Shown here in pieces: positions 28,534-45,259 of a stretch of 64,000 nucleotides of DNA. The DNA comes from an uncultured Desulfobacter sp. (lineage in GTDB: Bacteria; Desulfobacterota; Desulfobacteria; Desulfobacterales; Desulfobacteraceae): the NCBI RefSeq assembly GCF_963665355.1, contig NZ_OY762229.1:248001-312000 (forward strand), read 5' to 3'. The position numbers were made by a program, and so were the translations under genes. The notes beneath the pieces were generated by a model, which worked only from the letters and a program-made list of their open reading frames with translations, did no database searches and had not been told where the DNA came from. Each line of letters begins with the position of its first letter. Within the stretch, counting starts at the first letter, position 1.

Positions 28534-29886
28534 CTATTCAAGTTTAAAGGATTTGATTTTACGCCATAACGAAACCCGGTCAATTTCCATGATTTCCGCA
28601 GCCCGGGTTTTGTTCCAGCTGGTTTGTTCCAGAACCCACTGGATATACCGCTTTTCCTGCTCCTTCATGGTGGGAATTTTTCCTTCCGGGGCTGTGCGGT
28701 AAATTTCAATGGCCATCTGGGTAAGATGGTCGGGAAGTGCCTCGGGATGGATGACCTCGCTGTTTTCCATAGCCACGGCCCGTTCTATGATATTTTCAAG
28801 TTCCCGGACGTTTCCCGGCCAGGTGTAATTCACAAGAAAATCCATGGTGGTCCGGTCGATCTCCTTAATACTTTTTCCCATATCCCGATTTTTCTTTGCC
28901 AGAAAATGATAGGCCAGCAGGGGAATATCTTCTTTTCTGTCTGCAAGTGCCGGCAATATGATGGATGCCACGTTGAGACGAAAATAAAGATCCTGGCGGA
29001 AATGGCCCTTATCAACCTCCTGGCGCAGATCCCGGTGGGTGGCCGCAACAAATCTTAAATCCACGTCTATGGTCTGGGTGCTGCCCACCCGCATGATCTC
29101 TTTTTCCTGGATCACCCGCAGGATCTTGACCTGCATGGAGGGCGGCATATCTCCGATTTCATCAAAAAACACAGTGCCCTGATCGGCAACCTCGAACAGG
29201 CCTTTTTTGGTTTTCATGGCACCGGTAAAAGCCTCTTTCTCATGGCCAAAAAGCTCATTGGCCATGAGATCTTCCGAAAATGAGCCGCAGTTAAAGGCCA
29301 CCATCTCATGATTCTTCCGGCTGGAAAGACTGTGAATTGCCCTTGCCACGAGCTCTTTGCCAGTGCCGCTTTCACCTAAAATCAACACGGAGATATCGGT
29401 CTGGGCCACCTGGGCAATGGTCTTTTTCACCTGGAGCATGGGTGCACTGTTACCGATGATGTCAGGCAGTTTTGCCCTCTGGTCAAGCTGCTTTCTCAAA
29501 GCCTGATTTTCCACTTGAAGGGATCGTTTGAGAAGAGCCTGCTTGATGATCTGCCGGACCTCGTCTATTTTGTAAGGCTTTGCAATATAATGATAAGCCC
29601 CTTCTTTCATAGCGATAACGGCATTGTCCACGGTGGCGTAGCCGGTGATCATGATCACTTCGGAGTGGGGCTGCAGTTCCCGGCAATGTTCAAGGATCTG
29701 CATACCGTCAATTTTTTTCATCTTGTAATCGGTGATAATCAGATCAAAGGTTCTGGTTCTCATAAGGTTCAGCCCCTTGGTTCCGCTGTCTACGGCTGAC
29801 ACCTTGTATCCATCCTTGACAAGAATATGTTCAAGGTTTTTAAGAGCGATCTGCTCATCTTCAATTATAAGAATATGTTCCTGCAT
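28534..29886 (-). CDS. NtrC-type sigma-54 response regulator
   Basis: About 450 residues. The receiver (phospho-acceptor Asp53 in LIITDYKMKK, Lys in IAKPY) is followed by the AAA+ domain (Walker A GESGTGKE, Walker B FFDEIGDM) and a Fis-type HTH (NKTRAAEIMEIDRVSLWRKI). The sigma-54 loop reads EAFTGA where GAFTGA is usual. The ATG at 29886 has AAGGAAG six bases upstream; a TTG at 29904 in the same frame is less likely. It begins 14 bases after the histidine kinase gene, its evident partner. Its receiver is about half identical to the one inside the Lon-type protein at 34550. A sigma-54 promoter heads the upstream same-strand operon (34192), a likely target. Confidence 0.94.
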   Translation of the reverse strand: MQEHILIIEDEQIALKNLEHILVKDGYKVSAVDSGTKGLNLMRTRTFDLIITDYKMKKIDGMQILEHCRELQPHSEVIMITGYATVDNAVIAMKEGAYHYIAKPYKIDEVRQIIKQALLKRSLQVENQALRKQLDQRAKLPDIIGNSAPMLQVKKTIAQVAQTDISVLILGESGTGKELVARAIHSLSSRKNHEMVAFNCGSFSEDLMANELFGHEKEAFTGAMKTKKGLFEVADQGTVFFDEIGDMPPSMQVKILRVIQEKEIMRVGSTQTIDVDLRFVAATHRDLRQEVDKGHFRQDLYFRLNVASIILPALADRKEDIPLLAYHFLAKKNRDMGKSIKEIDRTTMDFLVNYTWPGNVRELENIIERAVAMENSEVIHPEALPDHLTQMAIEIYRTAPEGKIPTMKEQEKRYIQWVLEQTSWNKTRAAEIMEIDRVSLWRKIKSFKLE

Positions 29887-29900
29887 GGTTCTTCCTTGTG

Positions 29901-31319
29901 TCAATCCGGCAGACTGACGGTAAATATTGTGCCCTGCCCCAGGCTGGAATTCACGCTGATTGTCCCGCCGTGCTGCTCAATGATACCATGAATAATGGAA
30001 AGGCCCAAGCCCGATCCCTTTCCCACTTCCCGGGTGGTGAAAAAAGGGTCAAAAATTCTGGCCAGATGTTCTTCCTTTATCCCTTCGCCCGTATCCTTAA
30101 CAGTAAAAACAAAGGTGCGGGCCTGGCTGTCCTTGTATGCTGAAATGGTGAGATGTCCCCCTTGCTGATCCTCCATGGCATAGACGGCATTAATGATCAG
30201 GTTGAGCAGAACCTGCTGGATACGTCGGGGATCCATGCGGCCCTCAAGATCATCGGGAACACTGATTTCCACCTCAATTTCCGAAGGGATGTCCCCGGAA
30301 ATCAGGTGCATGGTTTTATTGACCAATTTTTTAAACAGGATCGGTTCAATACTAAAATCACTATGCCTGGAAAAATCAAGCAGGGCCCGGATAATTTCCT
30401 TTGAGCGGTGAATCTCCTGTTCCACATTGTCCAGAAGCATCCTTTTATATTCAATATCCGAATCTTCAATTTCCTCCTGGATAATCTGGATACTGGTGGA
30501 GATATTGTTCAACGGATTGTTCAGTTCATGGGCAACTCCGGAAGTAAGGGTTCCCAAAGAAGACATTTTCTCTGCCTGTATAAGCTGGGTCTTACGCCGG
30601 TCCAGCTCCTCAATCATGTCGTTTAAACTTACGGCCAAAGATTCAAACTCGTCTCCGGTGTTTATTTCCGGAATTTTATCATAATCCCCCTTGGCAATGT
30701 GTTTGATCCCGGTTTCAATGGCTTTTAATGGACGGTTGAACTTGATCACCAAAAAAATTGTGGCCAGCACCGTGAGAATAAACAATAAGAACAGGGAAAT
30801 CATCAGGTATTCCCTGGACCGGTCCAGCAGTTCAAACACCTTTCTTTTTTCTGTTTTCACCACCTGTTCAATATCGGTGGTCAGTTCCCTGCCAAGCTGG
30901 GTCACCGTATTTTGAATCTGAAAAGACTGCTCAGAAGATACTGCACCATTTTTATACAGGTTCAACAGGGTTTCCAGGTTGGTGCGGTAGGCATTAATGG
31001 ACTTCCTGCGTTGCTGAACAGAGGGCTCCTTTGCCACAAGGTCGGGAAACACTTTTTCAATAGATGCCTGCTTTTCATCAATTTTATTGATGTATGACAG
31101 GGCCAGGGACAAATCCTTGACATCTTTTCTTAAAAAAAAATTTTTCTCGTAACGGCGGGCTTCCAGAATCGTATCCAGCAGATCCCGCTTCTTTTCTATG
31201 AGCACCAGAGTGTTTAACACCGTGGAATTGCTGTAGTGGTTAATAAACCAGATAATGCTGTTCACCACCATGAAAACCAGGAAAAGAAATGATATTTTTT
31301 GTCTGAGACTGAAACTCAT
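29901..31319 (-). CDS. membrane sensor histidine kinase with HAMP
   Basis: 472 residues: membrane segment about 9-27, a helical periplasmic region of roughly 145 residues (a four-helix-bundle-like sensor), a second segment (YLMISLFLLFILTVLATIFLVI, 171-192), HAMP, HisKA with phospho-accepting His264 in SGVAHELNNPLNN, and HATPase (NLIINAVYAM, DTGEGIKEEH, GKGSGLGLSI). It belongs to the NtrB-like group that partners with NtrC-type regulators. The downstream regulator starts 14 bases after its stop. It lies 145 bases downstream of the SLC13 permease on the same strand and may share its transcript, which suggests control of that transporter operon. Confidence 0.94.
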   Translation of the reverse strand: MSFSLRQKISFLFLVFMVVNSIIWFINHYSNSTVLNTLVLIEKKRDLLDTILEARRYEKNFFLRKDVKDLSLALSYINKIDEKQASIEKVFPDLVAKEPSVQQRRKSINAYRTNLETLLNLYKNGAVSSEQSFQIQNTVTQLGRELTTDIEQVVKTEKRKVFELLDRSREYLMISLFLLFILTVLATIFLVIKFNRPLKAIETGIKHIAKGDYDKIPEINTGDEFESLAVSLNDMIEELDRRKTQLIQAEKMSSLGTLTSGVAHELNNPLNNISTSIQIIQEEIEDSDIEYKRMLLDNVEQEIHRSKEIIRALLDFSRHSDFSIEPILFKKLVNKTMHLISGDIPSEIEVEISVPDDLEGRMDPRRIQQVLLNLIINAVYAMEDQQGGHLTISAYKDSQARTFVFTVKDTGEGIKEEHLARIFDPFFTTREVGKGSGLGLSIIHGIIEQHGGTISVNSSLGQGTIFTVSLPD

Positions 31320-31463: not shown

Positions 31464-33278
31464 TTACGAAATACCGTAAAACAGGTAAATGACGGTAAGC
31501 TCCACGGTCAGAAACAGCAACGTCATTACAGTGCCGGCCTTGGCGTAATCAATGGTTCGGTAACCGCCCGGACGCATGACCAGAGCATTAACCTGATGGG
31601 TCGGCAACACAAAGGTGTTGGACGCTGAAAGCCCCACCACAAGGGCCGCCATTCTCGGATCTGCCCCGGCCATCACGGCCATATTCATGCACAGGGGAAC
31701 CAGAAGTACCGTGGCCCCCACATTGGAGATCACCAGGGTAAAAAAGGATGCCATGAGGCCCACAACCGCTAAAAGGATTATGGGTGACGGCGTTCCGATC
31801 AGGTTGAGCACGGTGTGGGCAATAAACCCGGCCGTGCCTGTTTTTTCAAAGGCAATTCCCAAGGGGATGAGCCCTGCCAGCAGAAAAACCGTCATCCAAT
31901 CCACCGCCAGATATGCCTCGTCAACGGTCAACACACCGGTAATGATCATGCCAAGGGCCCCGGACATAAGCGCAACTGCCAGTTGGATTTTCAAAAAAAC
32001 AATCTGGAAAAGGGCAAGTGCCAGCCAACCCACAGCCAGCATGGCTTTCTGGGGCCGCAGGATTTCACCCTCCAGCTTGGATGCAAATATCAGGGCTCTG
32101 GGTTTGGGCCTGTTCATCAGGATATGAAATTTCTCCCAGGGACCCTGGAGCAGCAGCGTGTCGCCCATGGCCAGGCGAATATTGGTCAGTCCTGAGTAGT
32201 ATTTACGGTTGTCCTTGAAAAGCACGAGGGGATTGAGCCCGTACATCTCCTTGAAATTAACCTCGTTCAGGGTTCTGCCGATGAGTTCGGATCTTGGTGC
32301 GACAACAACCTCGGCCATACCGGCATTGGTATTGGCCAGAAACTCTGCAAAGGTTTCAAGGGCAGGCTTTATCTGCCAGCCGAACTCCTTTGCCAGCTGC
32401 TCAATATTTTCCCTTTTACCGACCACCGCAATATCATCGCCACTGTTGATTGATTCATAACTGCGGGGCACATGGTTGGTGGTCCGGGTGGAGGGAGAAG
32501 AGATGCCGATGACCGTAACAAGAAACTTGGGACGAATGTTTAAATCATCCAGAAGCCCTGTGGTACCGGAACCTTCGGGAACATGCATCTCCACCAGACT
32601 GTTGACACCCTCGTATTCATTAATAAGCACATCCGTGGCACCCTTGCTGTCCTGGCCGCTTGCGCTGGGAAGAATGAACCGCCCGAAAACCAGAAAATAT
32701 AAAAGTGCTGTCCCCAGCAGACACACGCCAATGGGGGTCTGGGTAAACAACCCGAAAGGTTCAAGCTTTTCTCCGCCCAATACCATAAGGTCATTGAGTA
32801 GAATGGTCGGACTTGCCCCCACAAGAGTGAGCGTGCCGCCGATAATGGCGCAAAAGCCCATGGGCATCAGGATGCGGGAGGCGGGAATACCCACCCTCTT
32901 GGAAATTCTCTGGGTGGCCGGCAGAAACAGGGCTGCAGCACCAATGTTCTGCATCATACTGGAAATGATGCCCACGGTGCCCGACACCAGAAGCATAATC
33001 TTGCCTTCGCTTTTGCCGGCAAGGGCCAGGATCGGCTTTGCCACCTTATTCATAACGCCGGTTTTATCCAGGCCTGCACCGATAATAATAACTGCAATGA
33101 TAGAACAAACTGCATTGGAACTTAAGCCCACAAAGGCTTCTTTGGGAGAGATCAGTCCAATCAGGGGGAGAAGGACCATCATCATTATCCCGACCACATC
33201 CACCCGTACCCATTCAAACACAAAGAGGCAGATAACAAAAACCAGGATGATCATGGTCATAATCATATCAGGGGTCAT
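31464..33278 (-). CDS. SLC13/DASS-type permease with TrkA-C (RCK-C) domains
   Basis: About 604 residues. Around ten or more hydrophobic segments frame two cytoplasmic TrkA-C domains in the middle (residues about 210-400, containing DVLINEY... and VVAPRSELIGRTLNEVNF). The signature SSMMQNIGAAALFLPA in the first half and TLVISNVGATVLLVPL in the second are the paired hairpin motifs of sodium-coupled SLC13 anion transporters. In sulfate reducers such proteins are candidates for sulfate uptake; dicarboxylate is the alternative. The ATG at 33278 follows TGGAGTG; the frame remains open upstream through repeat copy C but lacks another good start. It sits in an operon-like series with a UspA-like gene and a microprotein. 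Confidence 0.92.
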   Translation of the reverse strand: MTPDMIMTMIILVFVICLFVFEWVRVDVVGIMMMVLLPLIGLISPKEAFVGLSSNAVCSIIAVIIIGAGLDKTGVMNKVAKPILALAGKSEGKIMLLVSGTVGIISSMMQNIGAAALFLPATQRISKRVGIPASRILMPMGFCAIIGGTLTLVGASPTILLNDLMVLGGEKLEPFGLFTQTPIGVCLLGTALLYFLVFGRFILPSASGQDSKGATDVLINEYEGVNSLVEMHVPEGSGTTGLLDDLNIRPKFLVTVIGISSPSTRTTNHVPRSYESINSGDDIAVVGKRENIEQLAKEFGWQIKPALETFAEFLANTNAGMAEVVVAPRSELIGRTLNEVNFKEMYGLNPLVLFKDNRKYYSGLTNIRLAMGDTLLLQGPWEKFHILMNRPKPRALIFASKLEGEILRPQKAMLAVGWLALALFQIVFLKIQLAVALMSGALGMIITGVLTVDEAYLAVDWMTVFLLAGLIPLGIAFEKTGTAGFIAHTVLNLIGTPSPIILLAVVGLMASFFTLVISNVGATVLLVPLCMNMAVMAGADPRMAALVVGLSASNTFVLPTHQVNALVMRPGGYRTIDYAKAGTVMTLLFLTVELTVIYLFYGIS

Positions 33279-33340
33279 TGAAAAACACTCCATTAAGTCT
33301 AACTGGTGTTTGGACTGAAAGCCCCTCATCGGGACAACTT

Positions 33341-33434
33341 TATATGAAAGTCTGTGTAACCTACAAAGATCTTTCAAACTTCGTTGTGGACTGAGCCCGG
33401 CAGCTGATATGTCAGGCCAGCACATGGCTGTTAT
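33341..33434 (+). repeat. 94-base interspersed repeat, copy C
   Basis: TATATGAAAGTCTGTGTAAC to ACATGGCTGTTAT, the same length as copies A and D. It sits between the microprotein and SLC13 genes, in antisense orientation to them, so it would be transcribed within their mRNA. A TGGACTGAGCCC segment can pair with the GGCCAGCACA end, imperfectly. Confidence 0.85.
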
Positions 33435-33574: not shown

Positions 33575-34135
33575 CTAACTCACTGAATAAACGCAAAGCC
33601 GCTGGGCAATCCGGTTCTGGTTCACGGCAGCATCTCTAACAGCAGCAGGGTTTTTGTTCTCGGAGATAATGAATTCAATGTGGCCGCATTCATTGGTAAT
33701 ATCGGAAATGGCATGATCAACGTCTGCCTGGCTTGTGGTGTGGGCAAATTTGAGTCCCATTTCTGCAGCCTTCTCCTTGAACGGCACCACGTTTTTCGCA
33801 GCGGTCTCCTTGAAATCGGCGTACAGTTCTTCCTGAGTGGTGGAAAAAAACGAGGTCACGTCATGGGTCAGATTGGCCGCATTTACCGCGATAATGCCGT
33901 AATCCATACGTTTGGCCATATCCAAAGCATAACTGGTCATCTCGTCTGAAAACCGGCTTTCAAGGGTGGCAACCACAAGGTTTTTACCCTGGTTGGTCCT
34001 GCATGATATGGTACATGAGCACTGATCAGTACCGTCATCATCTTTAACACAAGGCCCGGAAAACATAATCGGGTTCTCTTTGCCGTGCTTTTTTCCAAAA
34101 CTTAATCTGTCTTTTAATCCATTTAAAAACTGCAT
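33575..34135 (-). CDS. universal-stress-protein-like protein
   Basis: About 186 residues. The stretch KNLVVATLESRFSDEMTSYALDMAKRMDYGIIAVNAANL and the later ADVDHAISDITNECGHIEFIISENK follow the alternating beta-alpha pattern of UspA domains: strand, long helix, strand, and a final helix-strand pair. The N-terminal segment is Cys-rich (CVKDDDGTDQCSCTISC) and could bind a metal. No clear ATP-binding GxxGxxxxS loop is seen. AAGGAGG lies 10 bases before the ATG at 34135, and a TTG two codons upstream is an alternative. It is the first gene behind a sigma-54 promoter and precedes the microprotein and SLC13 permease. Confidence 0.7.
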   Translation of the reverse strand: MQFLNGLKDRLSFGKKHGKENPIMFSGPCVKDDDGTDQCSCTISCRTNQGKNLVVATLESRFSDEMTSYALDMAKRMDYGIIAVNAANLTHDVTSFFSTTQEELYADFKETAAKNVVPFKEKAAEMGLKFAHTTSQADVDHAISDITNECGHIEFIISENKNPAAVRDAAVNQNRIAQRLCVYSVS

Positions 34136-34191
34136 AATCAACCATCCTCCTTTAGGTGTATTAGGTTATCAATCTTTTTTGTGGAATAATG

Positions 34192-34207
34192 AGCAAGTTG
34201 CATACCA
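34192..34207 (-). promoter_or_regulatory. sigma-54 promoter of the UspA-like/SLC13 operon
   Basis: On the minus strand TGGTATGCAACTTGCT fits TGGCAC-N5-TTGCW with GG and GC ten bases apart and two departures. It lies 57 bases upstream of the UspA-like gene's ATG, leaving a leader of about 45 bases that includes the ribosome-binding site. Confidence 0.6.
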
Positions 34208-34285
34208 GATTTTCAAAATGTCTATAGAAGCGCTTAGAATAAGGATTTCCATAATCTGGGGGCCATTTACCTGCCCAAGATTGCG

Positions 34286-34377
34286 TTGCATATTGCAATG
34301 TATTTTTTGATCATCGCCCAAAGCCTTGCCATATAGCGGTTTTCGGGCATTGCATTTGTCAATGTTCGCGTTGCGAA
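34286..34377. promoter_or_regulatory. two dyads, candidate enhancer sites
   Basis: TTGCATATTGCAA (34286-34298) and TTCGCGTTGCGAA (34365-34377) are both perfect 5+5 inverted repeats with a 3-base centre. Their centres lie about 85 and 165 bases upstream of the sigma-54 promoter at 34192, the usual range for NtrC-type activator sites. The second is also about 180 bases upstream of the divergent lon-like gene. The remainder of 34208-34549 has no gene. Confidence 0.45.
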
Positions 34378-34549
34378 ATGCATCGATTTACATCAAGATA
34401 CAGTGATATTCTTACCTGGCTTAAACAGAAAAACCTTTAGTAATGTACTTTTAAAGATGCCTTAAAAAGGAATCAGACATCAGGCATGGTAATTGCTCCA
34501 ATGCTGAAAACCATTTATAACCTTTAAGCTTGAGAGAAAGGGTCTTCAT

Positions 34550-36577
34550 GTGAAACGGATTTTTAAAAAAGAAGAAGCGCCGCAGGTTGTTGATGCGGGG
34601 GCAGAAGAGATTGCGGCCCTGCGCGAGGCCGTACTGGACCAGAAAATCCCGGCCGAGGTTGAAAAAATTCTGCTTAAAGAGGTGGAGCGGCTTGAAAAAA
34701 TAAACCCCGCGTCGGCAGAATACACCATCGGGCTTAACCATATCGATTATGTGACCACCCTGCCCTGGAACCGATACACCCAGGATAATCTTGACATCCA
34801 GCGGGCGGAAAAAATTTTGGATTCCGACCATTATGGACTTGAAGAGATCAAGGAGAGAATTCTTGAACATCTGGCGGTGCGGCAGATGAAACTGTCCCGG
34901 AAAAATACTATTCTTGTGGTGGATGACGAGCAGATCACCAGAATGAATCTGGAACATGTTCTGTCCAAGGAGGGTTATGAAGTCACCACGGCTGACGGCG
35001 GCACCCAGGCCCTTGAATTCTTAAAAAAAAATACCGTGGATCTGGTGATCACAGACCTCAAAATGGACAAGATCGACGGCATGGCGCTTCTGGGACGTAT
35101 AAAGGCCAACAGTCCCGGCACAGAAGTGATCATTATCTCGGGTTATGCCACGGTGCTCACGGCCGTGGACGCCATCAAGCGCGGATCCTTTCACTTTATT
35201 CCCAAACCCCTCAAGCTCGACGACATCCGGGAAACCGTAAAAAAAGCCTTAAGCAAAAAAACAGGACTTGTGGAAGCCAAGGGACCTGTGATCTGTTTTG
35301 CAGGCCCTCCGGGTACGGGCAAAACCTCTCTTGGCCAGTCCATTGCCCAAAGTCTTGAACGAAAATTTGTCCGGATTTCCCTTGCCGGTGTGAAGGATGA
35401 GGCTGACATCAGAGGACACAGGCGCTCCTATGCCGGTGCCCTTGCCGGCCGGATCATCCAGGAAATTCGACGGGCCGAATCTCTGAACCCAGTTCTCATG
35501 CTTGATGAGATTGATAAAATCGGACAGGATTTTAAAGGAGATCCCGCCTCAGCCTTGCTTGAGGTCCTGGATCCCCAGCAGAACTCAAAGTTCATTGACC
35601 ATTACCTGGACATCCCCTTTGACCTTTCCAAGGTGATGTTCATTGCCACGGCCAATATGGTGGCAAGGATCCCCGGGCCTTTACTGGACCGGTTTGAGGT
35701 GATCTCCATGTCCGGATACACCATCGAAGAAAAAATCCACATTGTCCAGCGCCACCTGATCCCCCGGGCCAAGGAAGATACCGGACTTTCGGGATTTGAT
35801 CTTAAATTTACAGAAAACGCACTTCGCATCATCATCAGAGAACACACCCGGGAAGCAGGATTAAGGGGACTTGAGCGGAAAATTGCCGCGGTCTGCCGCA
35901 AAATTGCCCGGCAGTATCTGGATACACCGGATGGCCCCCGGAAGATAAAAATTGATGAAAGTGCCGTTGAAAAATTTCTGGGGCCTGCCCAATATCACTA
36001 TGAGATTGCCGGGGCCCGGGACCGTATAGGGTGTGCCACAGGCCTTGCCTGGACAGAGAGCGGCGGAGAAATCATCTTTGTTGAGACCACACGGATGATG
36101 GGTGCCGAACGACTGATCCTCACCGGATACTTAGGAGAGATAATGAAAGAATCGGCCCAGGCCGCCTTAAGTTATATCCGCAGCCACACCGAACAGTTTG
36201 GCCTGGCCCCGGATTTTTTTCAAGGCCGGGATATCCACGTCCATGTACCCTCGGGCGCCATTCCCAAGGACGGCCCTTCAGCCGGGATGACCATTGCCGT
36301 GGCACTGGTCTCTCTCTTAAAGGATATACCCTGCCCCCGGGATACAGCCATGACAGGAGAAGTGACTCTAAGCGGCAGAATCCTTCCTGTGGGCGGCATC
36401 CGGGAAAAACTTCTTGCCGCAAAAACTGCTGGAATCAAAACGATTATTTTCCCCGCTAAAAACCAGGCTGAGATTGCCGCCATGGATGACACGCTCAAGC
36501 AGGGAATAAATATCTTTACCGCAAGTGAGCTTGATGACGTCATTCGGCAGGTATTGGGCATGGAAGCCATTGATTGA
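34550..36577 (+). CDS. Lon-type protease with inserted CheY-like receiver domain
   Basis: 675 residues. Residues 20-115 match the Lon linker just before its ATPase (TLPWNRYTQDN, AEKILDSDHYGLEEIKERILEHLAV). A full receiver follows at 118-236 (DD at 125-126, phospho-acceptor Asp169 in LVITDLKM, Ser197, Lys219). The Lon AAA+ module then resumes (Walker A GPPGTGKT, Walker B LMLDEID at 316-322, DIRGHRRSY) and the protease domain carries the dyad Ser577 (DGPSAGM) and Lys620. The normal N-terminal substrate-binding domain is absent. This predicts a two-component-controlled ATP-dependent protease. The start is GTG at 34550 after AAAGGGT. It is divergent from the UspA-like/SLC13/kinase/regulator series, whose regulator has a very similar receiver. 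Confidence 0.96.
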   Translation: MKRIFKKEEAPQVVDAGAEEIAALREAVLDQKIPAEVEKILLKEVERLEKINPASAEYTIGLNHIDYVTTLPWNRYTQDNLDIQRAEKILDSDHYGLEEIKERILEHLAVRQMKLSRKNTILVVDDEQITRMNLEHVLSKEGYEVTTADGGTQALEFLKKNTVDLVITDLKMDKIDGMALLGRIKANSPGTEVIIISGYATVLTAVDAIKRGSFHFIPKPLKLDDIRETVKKALSKKTGLVEAKGPVICFAGPPGTGKTSLGQSIAQSLERKFVRISLAGVKDEADIRGHRRSYAGALAGRIIQEIRRAESLNPVLMLDEIDKIGQDFKGDPASALLEVLDPQQNSKFIDHYLDIPFDLSKVMFIATANMVARIPGPLLDRFEVISMSGYTIEEKIHIVQRHLIPRAKEDTGLSGFDLKFTENALRIIIREHTREAGLRGLERKIAAVCRKIARQYLDTPDGPRKIKIDESAVEKFLGPAQYHYEIAGARDRIGCATGLAWTESGGEIIFVETTRMMGAERLILTGYLGEIMKESAQAALSYIRSHTEQFGLAPDFFQGRDIHVHVPSGAIPKDGPSAGMTIAVALVSLLKDIPCPRDTAMTGEVTLSGRILPVGGIREKLLAAKTAGIKTIIFPAKNQAEIAAMDDTLKQGINIFTASELDDVIRQVLGMEAID

Positions 36578-44376: not shown

Positions 44377-44823
44377 ATGTTTACAAGAAGAAATGAAATA
44401 GACAGAATGTTTGGGGCCATGGATCTGCTCCGCACCAGAATGGACAGACTTTTTAATGAAAATTACAGACCTTACCTGCATGGACCGGCATTTACCCTGG
44501 GAACCAATTCACCCAGAACCAATCTTGTGGAAAATGGTGACAAATTTGAAGTCCAGGCTGAACTGCCCGGTCTCTCAAAGGATGACATCAGCATTAAAAT
44601 CCAGGGCAATTACCTTGAAATCAGCGGTAAACGGGTTATTGAATCCCCTGAAGGGTATAAATCCCACAGAAATGAACGGTCTGCCACCACATTCTCACGC
44701 AGTTTTACCCTGCCCGAAGAGGTTGATGCGGAAAAAGTTGATGCCCAGCTTAAAGATGGAATTCTGTATCTGACCTTGCCAAAATCAGAGGCAGCCAAAC
44801 CCAGACAGATCGCTATCAATTAA
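44377..44823 (+). CDS. Hsp20/alpha-crystallin small heat-shock protein
   Basis: 148 residues. The alpha-crystallin domain spans about 45-140: PRTNLVENGDKFEVQAELPGLSKDDISIKIQGNYLEISG, then FSRSFTLPEEVDAEKVDAQLKDGILYLTLPK, with the family A-x-x-x-x-G-V/I-L signature as LKDGILYL. An N-terminal arm starts MFTRRNEIDRMFGAMD. It is an ATP-independent holdase that binds unfolding proteins. AAAAGGAGT precedes the ATG. A second Hsp20 gene follows after 50 bases, so the two form a stress operon ending at the terminator near 45380. Confidence 0.95.
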   Translation: MFTRRNEIDRMFGAMDLLRTRMDRLFNENYRPYLHGPAFTLGTNSPRTNLVENGDKFEVQAELPGLSKDDISIKIQGNYLEISGKRVIESPEGYKSHRNERSATTFSRSFTLPEEVDAEKVDAQLKDGILYLTLPKSEAAKPRQIAIN

Positions 44824-44873: not shown

Positions 44874-45259
44874 ATGAGCAACAGACAAGAGATCACCACA
44901 ACCGAAGACAAGACCATTGAAAAAAACCGTGAACTGAGAACCGCCACCCCGTCAGTGGACATTTATGAAAATGAAAATGAGATCCTGCTTTATGTGGACA
45001 TGCCTGGGGTTCACAAGGAAGATGTAAGTGTGAATATTGAAAACGGCAAGCTGTCCATCTCCGGTGTACGCAAGCTGGGCCAGCAGGGCGTGTCCAACTG
45101 GGCGGATTTGTTGATGTGGAATATGTCAGAAGCTTTTCCATCCCCCAGACCATTAAAGTGGAAGATGTCGCGGCCAAACTCAAAGATGGAGTACTGACCC
45201 TTCATCTGCCCAAATCTGATGCCGCCAAACCCAGACTGATTGAAGTCAAGGCCGCATAG
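44874..45259 (+). pseudogene. second Hsp20 gene, frameshifted
   Basis: Starts MSNRQEITTTEDKT after an AGGAGG ribosome-binding site and runs through the first half of the alpha-crystallin domain (VDIYENENEILLYVDMPGVHKEDVSVNIENGKLSISGV). At about 45105-45108 the homology passes to the next frame, which continues FVDVEYVRSFSIPQTIKVED and LKDGVLTLHLPKSD to a TAG at 45257-45259. One base appears to be missing next to the TTTG run. As it stands, translation would end at 45197 with an unrelated tail. It may be a recent mutation or a sequencing error. Confidence 0.88.

Follow-up and report, generated by a model that had tools for sequence, protein, structure and literature searches.

The closest described system is that of Desulfovibrio vulgaris. 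There, the sections consulted of Rajeev et al. 2011 (PMC3333781) report DVU3303 as a response regulator containing Lon protease and as one arm of a three-component system with DVU3304/DVU3305, and already propose that phosphorylation activates the DVU3303 protease. We refer to such proteins as REC-Lons. In the parts of later papers that we drew on, DVU3305 is a general-stress sigma54 regulator (PMC4641369), and a 2023 RB-TnSeq study (PMC10102598) gives pairwise cofitness values all >0.9 for DVU3303:DVU3305, with disruption of the three-component system being beneficial in 6.25 mM chlorate and the target DVU3299, a putative anion transporter, being important in chlorate (fitness -2.3). On these excerpts, loss of the system helps in chlorate and loss of the target DVU3299 hurts, a pattern that does not fit a simple activator. 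The portions seen of the main text of a 2008 survey of Lon architectures (PMC2605481) do not use the words receiver or response regulator, and a biochemical study (phosphorylation, ATPase, proteolysis) of any REC-Lon was not found in the open-licence literature, among the papers listed. An earlier note on the DNA analyzed here had regarded the architecture as not a described Lon type. This was wrong, given DVU3303, and the protein encoded in the window (the whole 64,000-nucleotide stretch of an uncultured Desulfobacter sp. that was analyzed) belongs to a family known since 2011.

NtrC-family sigma54 regulators also carry a receiver before an AAA+ module, and the REC-Lon receiver is of the same type (1zy2, NtrC1, 1.3e-21); their output is a sigma54 activator, whereas that of REC-Lon is a protease, and Lon linker helices precede its receiver. 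RssB and CpdR are separate response-regulator adaptors for ClpXP; phosphorylation-controlled proteolysis via a receiver is proposed for REC-Lon too, but here the receiver lies within the protease chain. LonA (TIGR00763, MEROPS S16) has the linker helices, AAA+ module, lid and Ser-Lys protease in common with REC-Lon, which differs in lacking the N-terminal LON domain and in having a receiver before the AAA+ module. A man-made N-domain-less LonA, MtaLon 242-793, retains ATPase, peptidase and casein degradation and loses degradation of thermally unfolded Ig2 and scrambled lysozyme, according to the part of its description consulted (PMC8087443).

The REC-Lon gene of the window is made up as follows:

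34550..36577, forward strand: REC-Lon gene (linker helices, receiver, AAA+, lid, S16 protease), 675 aa
34604..34897, forward strand: Lon linker helices, residues 19-116, matching residues 8-105 of the solved Lon chain 3m6a
34910..35239, forward strand: receiver, residues 121-230 (PF00072 Response_reg, 101 bits)
35291..35707, forward strand: AAA+ ATPase core, residues 248-386 (PF00004)
35948..36556, forward strand: S16 protease (Lon_C), residues 467-669, with the Ser577/Lys620 dyad (PF05362, 266 bits)

The open reading frame starts with GTG and contains no internal stops. Its receiver has the acidic pocket (D125/D126), phospho-acceptor D169 (codon 35054-35056), Ser/Thr switch (S197) and lysine (K219) of a response regulator, and NtrC-type and other regulator models of NCBIfam, those of RssB and CpdR included, matched it, each under its own cut-off. 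The remainder reads as a LonA, with an AAA+ module with Walker A/B, a Lon_lid at residues 410-459 (Pfam), a Ser-Lys S16 protease and a match to TIGR00763 'endopeptidase La' of 707 bits against a cut-off of 608. We take the AAA+ motifs to be the Walker A GPPGTGKT, D319/E320 and pore-loop Y294. The N-terminal LON-domain family was absent among the 10 Pfam families listed (E<=0.001). Alignment to solved chains locates the difference precisely. In 3m6a, which we take to be Lon of B. subtilis, residues 8-105 correspond to query residues 19-116 and residues 106-530 to query residues 243-669, with zero chain residues between; the two chain stretches are contiguous, so ~126 residues are inserted in REC-Lon and none removed. 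Chains 7p6u and 4ypl have 3-4 residues between both matched stretches. The earlier note had placed the receiver at the joint of the linker helices and the AAA+ module, and this clean insertion bears it out, as does its statement that the N-terminal substrate-recognition domain is gone: no Pfam family for it was found, and the match of the 795-aa chain 7p6u to REC-Lon begins only at residue 249. Residues 4-101 of chain 4ypl, presumably the MtaLon 242-793 construct, match REC-Lon 17-114; MtaLon AAAP 242-793 therefore starts at about the same linker point as REC-Lon, and differs in having no receiver. The host genome contains five further full-size Lon open frames (791-817 aa), and REC-Lon is thus an extra paralogue. 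Separately, a 100-aa frame at G000:C2:2775843-2776145 (L007) matches the Lon C-terminus (profile positions 104-204 of 205) and has one TGA within the match; it is apparently the remnant of another Lon copy.

We aligned 48 REC-Lons, one of which is a duplicate record (L149 = L053) that was kept in this alignment, the receiver tree and the sigma54 scan and dropped from the linkage, palindrome, transporter, orientation and core-tree counts. D125, D169, K219, K258, Y294, D319, E320, S577 and K620 are identical in 48/48; position 197 is T or S in 48/48, and position 126 is D in 46 and E in 2. Hence the phospho-acceptor with its receiver hallmarks and the Ser577/Lys620 dyad, both described as intact from the window protein alone, hold across the family. 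The stretch between residues 111 and 244 is 134 residues long in every sequence.

Full-length REC-Lon genes are present in 18 of 59 close genomes, the host included, and a nineteenth genome has a partial one. The 17 full-length homologues in other genomes are 56-92% identical, and five of the carriers (G004, G008, G015, G016, and G018) are single-contig genomes, which excludes a misjoin. A wider search for other REC-in-Lon proteins, which the earlier note had proposed, found homologues in Desulfobacterota and Nitrospirota. With a 213-residue query spanning linker, receiver and Walker motif, 51 of 395 genomes in an even draw of Desulfobacterota match at E<=1e-50, and 48 of these matches span the whole segment, +/-3 residues at the ends. 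The phylum of a Nitrospirota-titled genome has REC-Lon in 19/148 genomes, that central genome included, and the family of a Desulfocurvus-titled record, the inferred family of D. vulgaris, has it in 20/59 (full protein, E<=1e-180). Among the named carriers are Desulfobacter vibrioformis DSM 8776, at 96% across the query segment, as well as MAGs whose titles read Nitrospirota, Desulfocurvus, Desulfovibrionaceae or Desulfobacterales. The REC-Lon design is real and widespread. A plasmid-borne REC-Lon was also considered and rejected, since a search of 72,556 plasmid records gave zero matches at E<=1e-30.

Reading upstream from REC-Lon, the window contains a set of divergent genes and candidate control sites:

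28534..29904, reverse strand: NtrC-family sigma54 response regulator (Pfam)
29901..31319, reverse strand: HAMP-HisKA-HATPase histidine kinase, the predicted phosphodonor (Pfam)
31464..33425, reverse strand: DASS/CitMHS anion transporter with TrkA_C (PF03600, PF02080)
33575..34141, reverse strand: small Usp-like protein (PF00582, 14.9 bits, sub-threshold against a cut-off of 24)
34192..34207, reverse strand: sigma54-type promoter of the divergent Usp-transporter-kinase-regulator genes (TGGTATGCAACTTGCT; conserved in the intergenic alignment)
34284..34300, no strand: putative upstream activating palindrome, box 1, of the TGTTGCANNNTGCAACA type, 3 mismatches
34369..34385, no strand: box 2 of the putative upstream activating palindrome, 85 bp further along and degenerate here (4 mismatches), in a conserved block
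34482..34497, forward strand: sigma54-type promoter, GG-N10-GC, 52 nt before the REC-Lon start, score 15

The kinase at 29901-31319 had been put forward as a partner of REC-Lon, a prediction that gene linkage supports. Of 46 REC-Lon loci, 39 contain homologues of both the kinase (>=200 bits to the window kinase) and the regulator (>=390 bits), and none of 70 other Lon loci does. The 70 are of mixed phyla, shorter (median 14.2 kb, 36/70 of them >=14 kb) and from hosts unmatched to the REC-Lon hosts. The controls come from a contig scan dominated by ordinary Lons, in which 10 of the 80 loci kept were REC-Lons and the other 70 served as controls. REC-Lon neighbourhoods were taken from 33 of the 51 phylum-draw genomes (E<=1e-50), four close genomes and all 10 contig-scan loci; long contigs were preferred, and the phylum draw had by then revealed which genomes had a linked receiver, so 39/46 may be flattering. 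Judged by eye among the matches listed, which reach down to about 5e-30, with few candidates scored per genome, the top non-Lon receiver in the phylum draw lay on the same contig, no more than ~12 kb away, in 35/51. Seven of the 46 loci do not have the pair at the thresholds used. The REC-Lons of two near-identical loci, L158 (9668-11674) and L159 (8439-10445), are accompanied by a less similar kinase and regulator (regulator 336-338 bits) and by neither the palindrome nor an above-threshold transporter; this is possibly a re-wired branch.

The two receivers of the window are also alike. Among 145 other receiver matches in the host genome (150 of 220 candidates scored), the receiver of the regulator at 28534-29904 is the nearest to the Lon receiver, with 51% identity and 124 bits, and the next scores 94 bits. 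A receiver tree unites 47 of 48 Lon receivers with 41 of 45 regulator receivers in a set of 88 rows (support 88) that contains none of 28 other host-genome receivers; L168 and L175 fall in the next larger set. The 41 linked-regulator receivers form their own group (support 89), nested among Lon receivers, which are not one clade but require at least 3 changes in this tree of a short alignment with 48 of 118 inner branches open. Alpha1 is the kinase-contact helix of receivers. In the window pair it is 60% identical, compared with a mean of 22% and a maximum of 47% against the 28 other receivers, and N133 is found in 48/48 Lon and 42/45 regulator receivers (commonest in the background are L and S, 5/28 each). 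Across loci, alpha1 identity in matched Lon/regulator pairs hardly exceeds that in mismatched pairs (0.580 v 0.568), so no fine-scale co-adaptation between the Lon and regulator receivers is seen.

On a quick tree of the AAA+/protease core, 47 REC-Lons lie on one side of one branch (98 SH-aLRT) relative to 70 other Lons, namely 65 from other loci, since 65 of the 70 control loci yielded a usable Lon core, and the five of the host genome. On the core tree, then, the REC-Lon family has one origin. A recent capture of the receiver from the linked regulator in the window lineage was rejected because the 47 REC-Lons group on the core alone (98) and the 41 linked regulators group separately (89).

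The divergent neighbours suggest what the circuit handles. Across the 46 REC-Lon loci, the window not counted, a DASS transporter is found in 14, a TauE/SafE transporter in 24 and both in 0, and neither type is found in any of the 70 control Lon loci. At the thresholds used, eight loci have neither; L050 and L136 are on short contigs, and L136, L158 and L159 have a sub-threshold TauE (80-105 bits). In 37 of the 38 loci, L148 being the exception, the transporter gene lies upstream and is transcribed away from REC-Lon, at a distance of 1.0-2.6 kb in 35 loci and of 4.6 and 6.1 kb in two. A Pfam scan of three proteins found TauE in each, and one neighbour gave a full Usp match; of five scanned relatives of the Usp-like protein, those of L135 (31.1 bits) and L160 (24.4 bits) pass the cut-off and three fall under it. 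Placed on the REC-Lon tree, the transporter label switches at least twice, loci with neither type being uncounted. DASS and TauE/SafE are unrelated families, and their exchange is a non-orthologous replacement in a fixed slot. We take this to mean that the circuit deals with an anion, or with stress caused by one; the transporter slot is the basis for this reading, which fits the chlorate phenotype and the 'anion transporter' target in print. Elsewhere in the window, two adjacent reading frames (44377-44823 and 44874-45197) presumably encode proteins resembling small heat-shock proteins; the second ceases to resemble the first towards its end, which may be out of frame.

Sigma54 promoters have the consensus GG-N10-GC. 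The 408-base region between the Usp-like and REC-Lon genes has diverged in the Desulfobacter clade, yet it retains conserved blocks, namely two sigma54-type sites that face outward along with three palindrome-like boxes (L049 spans no more than a part of this alignment). The site before REC-Lon scores 15 in 6/6 Desulfobacter-clade loci and is an invariant block in the diverged alignment. Before REC-Lons at large such a site was not found: scores of >=14 occur in 9 of 47 upstream regions (two of the nine, L053 and L149, being the same record) versus 16 of 667 control upstream regions, with gene starts set by a simple rule that is possibly wrong in some loci. At >=15, there are six REC-Lon sites, all from the Desulfobacter clade, and 7/667 controls.

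The palindrome TGTTGCANNNTGCAACA was derived from the six Desulfobacter-clade loci and tested on 40 held-out loci, without the six source loci and without L136, whose gene is cut by the contig end. With <=2 mismatches, it has 40 matches near REC-Lon starts (35.6 kb) in 24/40 loci versus 16 in 747 kb elsewhere, and with <=3 mismatches 57 matches in 29 loci versus 48 in the same 747 kb; 30 permuted palindromes had at most one near match each at <=2 mismatches. Where palindromes are paired, 11 of 16 spacings are 86-91 bp, or about 87 bp. Held-out loci that do not have the palindrome number 16/40 at <=2 mismatches and 11/40 at <=3, and four loci scored as misses (L160, L164, L054, and L058) carry a pair just beyond the counted region. 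These counts show that a shared enhancer motif is enriched before REC-Lon genes. Near-matches away from the REC-Lon promoter, at L131 1973 and 11744 and at L132 12029, are possible further targets of the regulator.

The window resembles the D. vulgaris system, as the consulted parts of its reports describe it, in several respects. Both have a REC+Lon protein with a kinase and a sigma54 regulator nearby (as in 39/46 loci); the DVU3303 system has UspA-type, membrane and anion-transporter targets, and the window has Usp-like and transporter genes upstream with candidate regulator sites. They differ in arrangement, since REC-Lon in the window is divergent from the Usp-transporter-kinase-regulator genes, whereas in L156 and L051 it stands before the kinase and regulator on the same strand. 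The window transporter is a DASS, and its likeness to the DVU3303 system is one of published description and gene context. In a related genome (L156), REC-Lon, kinase and regulator follow in that order and overlap, so the D. vulgaris cofitness may be polar.

We suggest, with a probability of about 0.68, that REC-Lon is a phosphorylation-controlled, N-domain-less Lon that provides the proteolytic arm of an anion/general-stress circuit. The invariant phospho-site and catalytic residues, the linkage to kinase and regulator, the similarity of the two receivers, the shared motif, the D. vulgaris cofitness and the retained activities of MtaLon 242-793 speak for this. The kinase at 29901-31319 would phosphorylate both receivers, that of REC-Lon and that of the NtrC-family regulator. 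The phosphorylated regulator, bound at paired palindromes ~87 bp apart, would fire the sigma54 promoters, which would drive REC-Lon as well as the divergent Usp-like and anion-transporter genes. Phosphorylation of D169 may change where the receiver sits with respect to the ring entrance or to an assembly interface and would thereby turn the N-domain-less Lon on (off being less likely). Because the general unfolded-protein receptor, the N-domain, is missing, the substrate range should be narrow, and REC-Lon would degrade only disordered or specially delivered proteins; likewise, the behaviour of MtaLon 242-793 implies that it should be no general quality-control enzyme. The transcriptional and proteolytic arms would thus answer the same anion/general stress. 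Here the phosphorylation gate, its sign, the phosphotransfer and the kind of substrate are what we infer.

A bolder version, which we consider unlikely, is that REC-Lon forms a Lon class of its own in which the receiver replaced the N-domain as the substrate gate, with the phosphorylated receiver itself capturing substrate and feeding it to the pore. The substrate would perhaps be the sibling regulator or the Usp-like protein, recognized through receiver pairing or Usp contact, and the setting would be an anion-stress circuit whose transporter slot, DASS or TauE/SafE, was swapped at least twice.

We also rate as rather unlikely a role of the receiver as a docking platform, in which, by pairing with the regulator receiver or by binding the kinase, it would bring the bound protein to the pore and make REC-Lon a negative-feedback timer of its own circuit. 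Alpha4 is part of the usual receiver pairing face. Of the receiver parts compared, the alpha4 region shows the greatest similarity between the two (0.659 matched, 0.630 mismatched), and the N-domain that normally binds substrates is absent, both of which are in keeping with docking. Against it, REC-Lon disruption in D. vulgaris agrees in sign and pattern with disruption of the kinase and the regulator (cofitness >0.9, in the excerpted data of PMC10102598); losing a degrader that provides feedback should have the reverse effect, which argues against pure negative feedback, and polarity could mask this.

Receivers can inhibit their own output domains. With an intact phospho-site, REC-Lon might accordingly be turned off by phosphorylation, or might drain phosphoryl groups from the kinase, and act once the stress ends. 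This is improbable: many REC-Lon genes carry their own circuit's enhancer motif, and in the Desulfobacter clade also the sigma54 site, so the protein would be made while switched off, and the same-sign phenotypes in the consulted part of the D. vulgaris data (PMC10102598) count against it as well. Still less credible is that the receiver is a mere assembly scaffold in place of the N-domain, with phosphorylation having no effect; an insertion that is clean and always of one length (134 residues in 48/48, from 111 to 244) would suit a scaffold, but D125, D169 and K219 are invariant in 48/48 and the kinase linkage is strong. Finally, the assembly or frame artefact that the earlier note had allowed for is ruled out, with a negligible residual chance, by the 17 other full-length homologues, five of them in single-contig genomes, and by the single clade on the AAA+/protease core.

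The favoured reading, that of a phosphorylation-controlled Lon, bears on how proteolysis is regulated. AAA+ proteases are normally steered by adaptors or N-domains. With a receiver within the protease chain, REC-Lon is a test case for direct two-component gating of ATP-dependent proteolysis, an idea that has been in print since 2011. What is new here is the comparative support for the circuit, from the held-out enhancer test, the controlled kinase linkage and the transporter swap. The conserved kinase, the paired enhancer and the interchangeable anion transporter suggest where signal and substrate may lie.
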